Shown here: positions 1 through 23,225 of the stretch, piece by piece
How positions within the stretch are numbered: the stretch's first letter is position 1
How the letters are laid out: the number at the start of each line of letters is the position of its first letter
NCBI GenBank assembly: GCA_016928415.1
Contig: JAFGKU010000048.1
Coordinates: 1-64,000, forward strand
Reading direction: 5' to 3'
Source of the DNA: Spirochaetales bacterium
Lineage (GTDB): Bacteria; Spirochaetota; Spirochaetia; SZUA-6; JAFGRV01
DNA length: 64,000 bases
Position numbers and translations under genes: made by a program
The notes under the pieces: model-generated
Databases searched by the model: none
Told to the model about the DNA's origin: nothing
Seen by the model: only the letters and a program-made list of their open reading frames with translations

Positions 1-3000
1 AAGCGTATCCTGGATAAACTGAGGCACATTAATTGTGTCCTTCGCGTCACCCATGACAACCGTCACAGGGGATGATTTTACACCTTCACGGTTCGTGTTA
101 TCCACCGGTGCTACGGTTAACCGGATTGTTTCACTATCGGAAAAACCCGGTAAAGTCATTTCCGTAACATAACCTATCCAGTATTGCCTGGATTCCCCCG
201 ACGTCATATTATCCACATACAGGTTGAATCCTGCACATGAATCACCGTTTGAATCCTTAAAAGCCAGATCGATTCCACCGGTATTGTTGTCCTGTGCGGT
301 AAACTCGGTCACCGCAGCAAGCGGTGTTGTATTGTTCACAATCAGGCTGCCCTGCGCAAAACAGCGCATTTCAGGCGAATCCGGATCACGCTGGACACCG
401 GCATACACGAAATATTCGCCGTTTAAGAGGTCTTGTGTGTTAATGTCTGCCGAGAAATCTCCGGAAGCCGTACAGGATGTTTCAGCTGCAAGTTTACCGA
501 CATAGGTGCCCATGGTCGTTCCCAGATAAATTTTCACCTGCGGTGTTGCGCCATTATGGAGATCCGCAGTTCCCCGTACCGTATAAGTATCACCTACCGT
601 CTCCCTATCAAGTGATGGAGTATTGAGGCTGATTGACGGGGTCATGGCCTTGCCGAAAACGTCAATTCTATATGCATCACTGTTGATGACATTGGAGACT
701 TCACAGGTCCATTCACCGGCTTCAGGATTCAATATGGCAATCATCAGGCCCGTTTCTTTCCGTTCATAAAGGACATCCGTGTCGGACAGTGAATATCGCC
801 TCCCGCTCGGAGAGATGGGTGTAACAACGGGATCTCCCTCAGGATAACTCACCACAAAGATAATCCGCTCCACTGGAACTTCCGCTGATGGATCCGTGTC
901 TCCAAGAAGAGTTGACGTTTCCAAATAAAGACCGCGATTGGTATTGATCTCGAGTCCCGTCGGCGCCATGGTTCCCGAAACCCGGAAATTGTATTTATCA
1001 ATGGTTCCGCCCTTTTCCATTTTGTCCATGTTAAAAACCCTGTTTTGTTTAACAGGCAGACCCAGATCCATGGTAACGGCAGACAAACCTTTGGAAGATT
1101 CCTGCGCCGCAAACGGGTTGTATAGTGTATAACGGCTTACATCACCCAATACAAAACCGCCAGATGAGGGAACGAAAATTCCAATTTGTCCGAATATCGG
1201 AACATCTATAAAACCTCGGAAACCCTCCTGACCGTTGGTGAATGTTCCGAAATCGGCGCCCATTCCGGGCAACCAGAGGTCAAACGGCGGAATATCAATG
1301 GTAACGTGCCACCACAAAATCCAGCCGCTCCAATGCCAAATGCTTCCGGTACGTAAGCCGAACTGAATCCTGCCCGAACCATTGACATTGGTCACACCGT
1401 CAAGCTGGAAAACATAAAGTTCAATCGAACCGCGTACAAACACGAGTTCAACGCCGACATATCCGTAGAATCCCTTCTTTGTCAAAGCCGCTATTAATTC
1501 TCCTTTGGCAAGACCATGAAGGATTGAAATATTTCCCTGGAACGCCCATTCCCAGTCGGTGATATCAATCCACAGATCCACACCGGCTTTTACAACGTCT
1601 CCACCTGTCTGGTCTACGATGGAAACACCAAGCTGAATTCGCATGCCTTCATCAAACATACCGCGGACTTTGGAAGGGATTTCCCTCGGAGGTCCAAAGG
1701 CAAAACCTCCCCGAATCTCATTCAAATACATACCTGTAGCGCCCAAAGGAATGCCCAATCCCCAAATTTTATATTTGAATAAGGCGCTCTCTATGCCCCA
1801 TGGATACCTTCTTGAGACTGGAACAAAGCTTATCGAAGCATTGAGCGTCCCGGCACCGGGGACCATTACGGACCCCGTACCGTCCACACGATATTCTCCG
1901 TCTTCTGATGAAAATTCTATCATCATATCCATAAACCAGAGACCACCGGCGATAGTAAAGTCTGGGATTCGTATCTGTCCACCCGTAATTTCCACACCAT
2001 CAGGACTCACGGAAACACCTCCCAAGTCTATGGTAAACCCGCCCATGAACTGGGGCAGGAGGAATTGCGTCTTGCTAAACGATAATTTCTTATTGGCAAA
2101 ATCCAAAGACGGATCATGCAGGCTTATGAGAAATCCGGTAAAATCGAACTGAAGAAGGGGCACGGCAAACTCGCCAAAAAAATGCCCGTTTGAATCAATA
2201 CCGGCTTCCTTGATTGTGATCTTGCTTGTCGACACGATTTCAGGAAGGGTGATCTGACAGAGGTCCATGGTAATACCGTTAACGTGGAAATTCAATCCTG
2301 TTACATCAATAGTAAAACCGGCCCAGGCAAAGGTAATGAGGTCATCCACGCCGGCGATTATATTCTTAACCTGCCCATTCCAGCCTATCCGCAATTCAGT
2401 CATGGTTACACTCAATCCGTTCAATCCATCCAGGCCGAAGTCTTGAGGGAATGTTAATGTGCCGGATAAGAATATGCCGTCAAGATCAAAGCCGAACGAA
2501 GAGAAGCTGGCCTTAATTCCTGCGAACAGTTCGTACTCTTTATATCCTTGAGCTGTGGCGCTGAATTCGGTCAAACCATTGACGGTTGAATATTCTACAT
2601 TTAATGTAATTTTCCCGAATTCCGAAAACGGATCGGGAAGGGTTGAGGCTAATATGTCACCCTGTAAAGCGAATATAAGTTCGTTCTGCGGTTTACTTGT
2701 TATTGTAAAAGTGTTGTTCGTATACGTTACATTATTGAAAAGAGTTACCGTAAACGACTGCGTAGTAACCGAAACATTAAGGATCTGACCGCTGGACAAT
2801 ATGCTGAATTCATTGATATCAATGGGCAGGTCAGCCAAACCTGACGGCAGGTTTCCGGGAAGTCTGACCCTGCCGTTTAAAAGTGATAAAAGCACATCCT
2901 TTTCCCCGTATTTTGATATACGGATAGTACCCCTTTCAAGAGGAAAACAGGAAAGATCGGATACGTCAAATTCCAAATTAAAATTAAGAACCTCCCCTTT

Positions 3001-23225: not shown

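Follow-up and report, generated by a model that had tools for sequence, protein, structure and literature searches.

Organization of the locus

The window, that is the whole analysed stretch of 64,000 nucleotides of a Spirochaetales genome, begins with three large open reading frames that carry Ig-like modules. We verified the frames and counted 7483 codons in total, which agrees with the more than 7400 codons given in an earlier, sequence-only reading of this DNA, and the divergent placement across 676 bp described there was reproduced as well. The features referred to below are:

1-11328, minus strand: gene 1, 3776 aa, frame running off the start of the contig
11329-12004, no strand: divergent intergenic region between genes 1 and 2, 676 bp
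about 11513-11572: dispersed repeat within this intergenic region
11740-11781: tandem repeat (10 bp x 4.2) within the same region
12005-17728, plus strand: gene 2 (pair member A), 1907 aa, Ig-rich lipoprotein with a C-terminal beta-propeller
12005-12064, plus strand: lipoprotein signal peptide of gene 2, with lipobox LVTTC at residues 16-20 and the codon of Cys20 at 12062-12064
16358-17725, plus strand: predicted seven-bladed beta-propeller of gene 2, residues about 1452-1907 (AF2 model)
17760-17791, no strand: near-perfect hairpin of 32 bases with a 14-bp stem, within the 94 bp that separate gene 2 from gene 3
17823-23225, plus strand: gene 3 (pair member B), 1800 aa, predicted Ig-array outer-membrane protein
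17979-18116, plus strand: N-terminal half-domain of gene 3, residues 53-98, corresponding to the C-terminal half of an Ig domain (HMM positions 37-81 of 90)
18159-22577, plus strand: internal Ig-like array of gene 3, residues 113-1585, with 11 clear whole domains and diverged ones at about 500-900
22581-22709, plus strand: pre-barrel half-domain of gene 3, residues 1587-1629, corresponding to the N-terminal half of an Ig domain (HMM positions 1-43 of 90)
22731-23222, plus strand: modelled OmpA-fold eight-stranded transmembrane beta-barrel of gene 3, residues about 1637-1800

The presence of Ig-like modules in all three proteins, as claimed before, was borne out by Pfam and NCBIfam scans, which returned Big_7 domains for gene 2 (E 2e-31) and gene 3 (E 4e-56), and OmpL47-type (E 2e-30) as well as Big_13 domains for gene 1. 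The Pfam scans of genes 1-3 gave no RTX match, and a sequence search of solved structures gave no match for genes 1 and 3. Scans for promoters and terminators yielded consensus matches only, and no Rfam family was found in the window. The hairpin between genes 2 and 3 is present in a single copy within the window. The dispersed repeat at about 11513-11572 has about 24 other partial copies genome-wide (77-96% identity), several of them at contig ends; it may be a REP-like or other small mobile element at which the assembly breaks. A PilZ-domain gene and a gene for apolipoprotein N-acyltransferase (Lnt) follow gene 3 on the same strand (23305-26046), and a 97% identical tandem repeat of 36 bp x 3.2 lies within an open reading frame at 55141-55255.

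Genes 2 and 3 form a conserved pair

In 60 relatives, the homologues of genes 2 and 3 mostly lie adjacent on one contig. A search with the barrel region of gene 3 among named genome contigs retrieved 232 stretches, 80 of which were kept, all with spirochaete titles. In the 60 loci that could be scored, a gene 2 homologue was found near the barrel gene in 48, on the same strand in 47, and was absent from the flanks examined in the other 12. Depending on the locus, gene 2 is located upstream or downstream of gene 3; some pairs enclose one short gene and two are about 5.7 kb apart. Loci with the two genes on opposite strands, divergent or convergent and nonetheless close, were observed as well (L150, G032/G057). 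Two gene 3 paralogues occur in L123, L142, G288, G300 and G219, in tandem in the first two. A matched-length tether was considered and rejected, as the length of the gene 3 array and the length of gene 2 do not rise together. None of the open-access papers that were searched describes the pair.

Judged by its signal peptide and lipobox Cys, a residue that recurs among the homologues, the product of gene 2 is a predicted lipoprotein, in line with the lipid anchor that had been proposed for one of the proteins. Its 456 C-terminal residues were modelled with AF2 as a seven-bladed propeller (pLDDT 76, pTM 0.82), and the model superimposes on 2z2o with a Z-score of 26.6 (2.8 A over 293 residues). 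According to Foldseek the propeller resembles those of lectins and sialidases.

Predicted periplasmic location of the gene 3 Ig array

Gene 3 encodes a protein with a signal peptide, and its last residues, ...FGARIGLF, end in Phe. The barrel-like C-terminus suspected earlier was confirmed by modelling: with an alignment of 68 sequences, AlphaFold2 predicted eight confident strands in the last 164 residues. The barrel in this model (model residues 237-400) is close to those of OprF (4rlc, Z 15.5) and OmpA (1qjp, Z 14.2), and thus qualifies as an eight-stranded OmpA-fold barrel. No Pfam or NCBIfam family covers it and a phage homologue was not found. With eight strands it does not correspond to the classical (type Va) autotransporter barrel, PF03797, which matched only one of the 68 members (E 0.018); its C-terminal position and strand number likewise set it apart from the inverse autotransporters. 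As to RTX or Ca2+-stabilised adhesins, gene 3 scored 32.8 bits against the NCBIfam Ca_tandemer model, where the cut-off is 50.

The variable loops of outer-membrane barrels face outwards. Among the 68 sequences the variation in length is concentrated in the connections b3-b4, b5-b6 and b7-b8 (standard deviations 5.3, 3.0 and 3.0), whereas b2-b3, b4-b5 and b6-b7 hardly vary (0, 0.12 and 0.69); b1-b2 shows slight variation. The variable loops are thus opposite to the N-terminus of the barrel, which puts the N-terminal side in the periplasm and the entire Ig array with it. On the basis of this model a periplasmic location is strongly supported, unless export is unconventional, and the proposal of a surface system is, as far as gene 3 is concerned, not supported.

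This topology bears directly on the alternative of a surface adhesin. In that case the gene 3 array would be exported and the gene 2 lipoprotein exposed at the surface, and the two would make up an elongated stalk whose propeller tip binds carbohydrates or other cells. There are good grounds to consider it: Ig domains of the Big_7 and Ca-tandemer type are common in surface adhesins, arrays like this one are typical of such proteins, the best Foldseek matches of the Ig domains are SiiE and the RTX adhesins, spirochaete lipoproteins can be surface-exposed, and the likeness of the propeller to those of lectins and sialidases would suit a binding tip. Nevertheless, in an eight-stranded barrel both termini are on the same side, the insertions and deletions are confined to loops opposite the N-terminus, an OmpA-type pore is too narrow for an Ig array, and complementary half-domains at the two ends are not something that a stalk adhesin requires. 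We therefore consider an adhesin rather unlikely.

Alternatively, gene 3 could assemble or export the lipoprotein of gene 2, in a pairing like that of Slam or of RcsF and OmpA. Complexes between a lipoprotein and a barrel are known, as between RcsF and OmpA-type barrels, and in most genomes the lipoprotein gene adjoins the barrel gene. The barrel of gene 3, however, is small, with eight strands, and not of the 14-stranded Slam type, and such a role leaves both the size of the Ig array and the composite closure described below unexplained, which makes it quite improbable.

The ends of the gene 3 array carry complementary Ig half-domains

The barrel of gene 3 is preceded by about 17 Ig units. 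When these were compared with an HMM of 90 positions, built from internal Ig domains, the first domain matched only from about position 33-50 onwards and the last only up to about position 45. This arrangement is general: among 164 homologues 155 start with a C-terminal half, 150 end with an N-terminal half and 142 have both, and those that do not have both are mostly from truncated contigs or give alignments that reach slightly further. In the AlphaFold2 model that includes the barrel, the pre-barrel half, present on its own, obtained a pLDDT of about 54-70, compared to values above 90 for the adjoining whole domains. A half-domain partner was also looked for in gene 2, where one Ig domain of several homologues matches the HMM only to position 39, and this candidate was rejected; in the window sequence this domain looks whole with an insertion, and gene 2 has no free Ig half-domain.

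The relation between the two ends was analysed by covariation. Mean-field couplings were derived from 1269 internal Ig domains, the top pairs of which showed the regular pattern of antiparallel strands, and were applied to the end halves of 107 non-redundant, related proteins, comparing pairing within the same protein with mismatched pairing. Halves of the same protein stood out both in energy (Z 3.2-4.7) and in mutual information at the Ig contacts (z 3.3-3.8). The 26 controls, in which one end half was paired with half of an internal domain from the same protein and thus with the same phylogeny, never attained these values with 15, 30 or 50 contacts (maxima 2.6 for energy and 2.4 for mutual information). 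One further control, consisting of two internal halves, gave a mutual information z of 3.7 but an energy score of -4.3. Moreover, the core positions of the end halves are hydrophobic and they constitute the most conserved Ig cores of the array, with W at HMM position 52 in 100 of the 107 proteins, R39 in 105 and Y66 in 99. The complementarity of the halves, together with a covariation at contacts above that of the 26 controls, suggests that the ends pair, most likely into a single composite Ig domain, either within one molecule (cis) or between molecules (trans), the covariation signal being the same for a ring and for a polymer.

The half-domains could also be relics of array shuffling, such that the gene happens to begin and end in mid-domain and the halves never meet. 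Arrays do grow and shrink freely, from 11.6 to 23.5 Ig units, but the retention of both halves in nearly all homologues, with the most conserved cores, and their covariation at Ig contacts, which sets them apart from the controls, render this explanation very improbable.

Gene 1 is associated with a different partner

The product of gene 1 has a signal peptide and a PD40/TolB-like propeller at the N-terminus, followed by the OmpL47-type Ig domains and a long beta-rich stretch; strong repeats were not found in a BLAST self-comparison. It had been described as a giant propeller protein. The N-terminal propeller matches are weak (PD40 E 1e-4, TolB E 2.5e-8), whereas the full seven-bladed propeller of gene 2 had been overlooked. 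As to the size, the frame of 3776 aa is indeed present, but base 1 of the window is base 1 of its contig, C111; the gene is cut there and 3776 aa is only a lower limit. Comparison with the 3' part of a relative's gene showed that the missing part begins another contig of the same genome, C56, where it is followed by a homologue of the gene that accompanies gene 1 in the relatives (the gene 1 family is noted on C56 at 11-8256). Open frames of the gene 1 family reach 5-6.4 kaa in relatives. OmpL47-type Ig domains are shared with OmpL47 of Leptospira, yet gene 1 scores far below the cut-off of the corresponding NCBIfam equivalog NF047441 (34.6 versus 250 bits) and so fails as a member of that family.

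Among 297 genomes of the class, 14 have a homologue of gene 1. Where the assembly is complete or nearly so, this homologue is far from the barrel gene: the distance is 717 kb in G051, at least 283 kb in G086, 637 kb in G246 and more than 1.6 Mb in G270. Elsewhere the two are on separate contigs; three genomes (G069, G173 and G243) have gene 1 and lack the barrel gene. In most relatives with a readable flank, gene 1 is directly followed on the same strand by a gene for a secreted protein of 0.9-1.9 kaa. Several of these partner proteins are mutually related. An F5/8C domain was identified in one of them, together with a weak match to peptidase M23, and an HxH/NlpC-like look was noted for the partner as well. 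Gene 1 and its downstream partner thus appear to represent a separate, undescribed two-gene system.

Conserved adjacency across spirochaete genomes had been put forward as the test of a three-component system, and the outcome divides the trio: genes 2 and 3 stay together while the homologues of gene 1 are scattered, which assigns the former to one system and the latter to another, and makes gene 1 a chance neighbour. A single system of three genes is extremely improbable. In its favour is the divergent arrangement of Ig-bearing neighbours seen here; against it, gene 1 showed no linkage to the others in any relative that allowed it to be located, is present in three genomes without gene 3 and has a partner gene of its own.

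Distribution of the pair

Of 394 Spirochaetia genomes, 149 gave a match to the gene 3 model; in ten or so the match was only partial or at the level of the Ig domains. FlaA is present in 146 of these 149 genomes, versus 131 of the 245 genomes without a match, and the three exceptions are assemblies that are 68-85% complete. The association may be phylogenetic. Moreover, the 131 genomes that have FlaA and lack gene 3 imply that gene 3 is not required for periplasmic flagella. Genes 2 and 3 thus appear as a two-gene envelope system of flagellated spirochaetes that is spread across the class.

A putative scaffold in the periplasm

As a whole, the data are best explained, in our view with reasonable though far from complete confidence, by assuming that genes 2 and 3 encode a periplasmic scaffold of the envelope in which the ends of gene 3 are paired, with gene 1 as an accidental neighbour. 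Gene 3 would then be a secreted Ig chain that ends in an OmpA-like outer-membrane barrel, with the chain on the periplasmic side, and the composite Ig domain would be in phase with the array. The pairing might take two forms. Each molecule could be closed into a ring, in the manner of the 'Velcro' of beta-propellers, which would be about 15-34 nm across given 11.6-23.5 Ig units of 4.0-4.5 nm each. Or the molecules could be joined head to tail to yield a continuous Ig filament, from which an outer-membrane barrel branches off at each junction. The lipid-anchored Ig rod of gene 2, with its terminal propeller, would be the partner and would probably bind the ring or filament, or link it to a membrane. 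A likely role for such a scaffold would be to stabilize or space the outer membrane that surrounds protoplasmic cylinder and flagella.

A more specific version, with outer-membrane-tethered filaments or closed hoops of gene 3 that make up an envelope skeleton together with the propeller lipoprotein, can be proposed only tentatively. The estimated ring would match a periplasmic flagellum in expected size, and gene 3 is almost confined to genomes with FlaA, which makes hoops or guides around the flagella conceivable.

It is poorly understood how the loose outer membrane of spirochaetes is held in place around periplasmic flagella while these rotate. If the proposed scaffold is correct, gene 3 would be a candidate structural element, as a giant and widespread Ig protein of the periplasm that is anchored in the outer membrane and has self-joining ends, and the permuted closure by a split Ig domain would represent a new way of closing or polymerizing a domain array. 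The periplasmic site, the paired ends and the formation of a ring or filament are predictions that can be tested directly.

Comparison with known systems

OmpA and OprF share the barrel fold with gene 3, and in both cases the part outside the membrane is periplasmic, in gene 3 by prediction. The order is reversed, however: the barrel of OmpA-type proteins is N-terminal and followed by a peptidoglycan-binding OmpA domain, whereas the barrel of gene 3 is C-terminal and preceded by an Ig array, and no OmpA domain was detected with Pfam or NCBIfam. Intimin and invasin likewise combine a barrel and an Ig array in one outer-membrane protein, but their 12-stranded barrel is at the N-terminus and their array is exported, unlike the C-terminal, eight-stranded barrel of gene 3. 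In the Velcro closure of beta-propellers and in the donor-strand joining of chaperone-usher pilins, terminal strands complete a domain and so close a ring or form a polymer. In those cases one strand is donated, whereas in gene 3 each end would contribute half an Ig domain.

With respect to domain order and predicted topology, gene 3 corresponds to spirochaete outer-membrane proteins such as the BamA TP0326 and the Tpr proteins, which have a periplasmic N-terminal part and a C-terminal barrel (PMC8407342); these differ in barrel size and carry POTRA or MOSP-N domains in place of a giant Ig array. Split Ig-like domains have been described for the RTX adhesins FrhA and MpIBP, in which the halves are found in normal order around one inserted domain (PMC10865825). 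There too a single Ig fold is made of two separated halves, as we propose for gene 3, but in gene 3 the order is permuted, with the C-terminal half first and the N-terminal half last, around the whole array.
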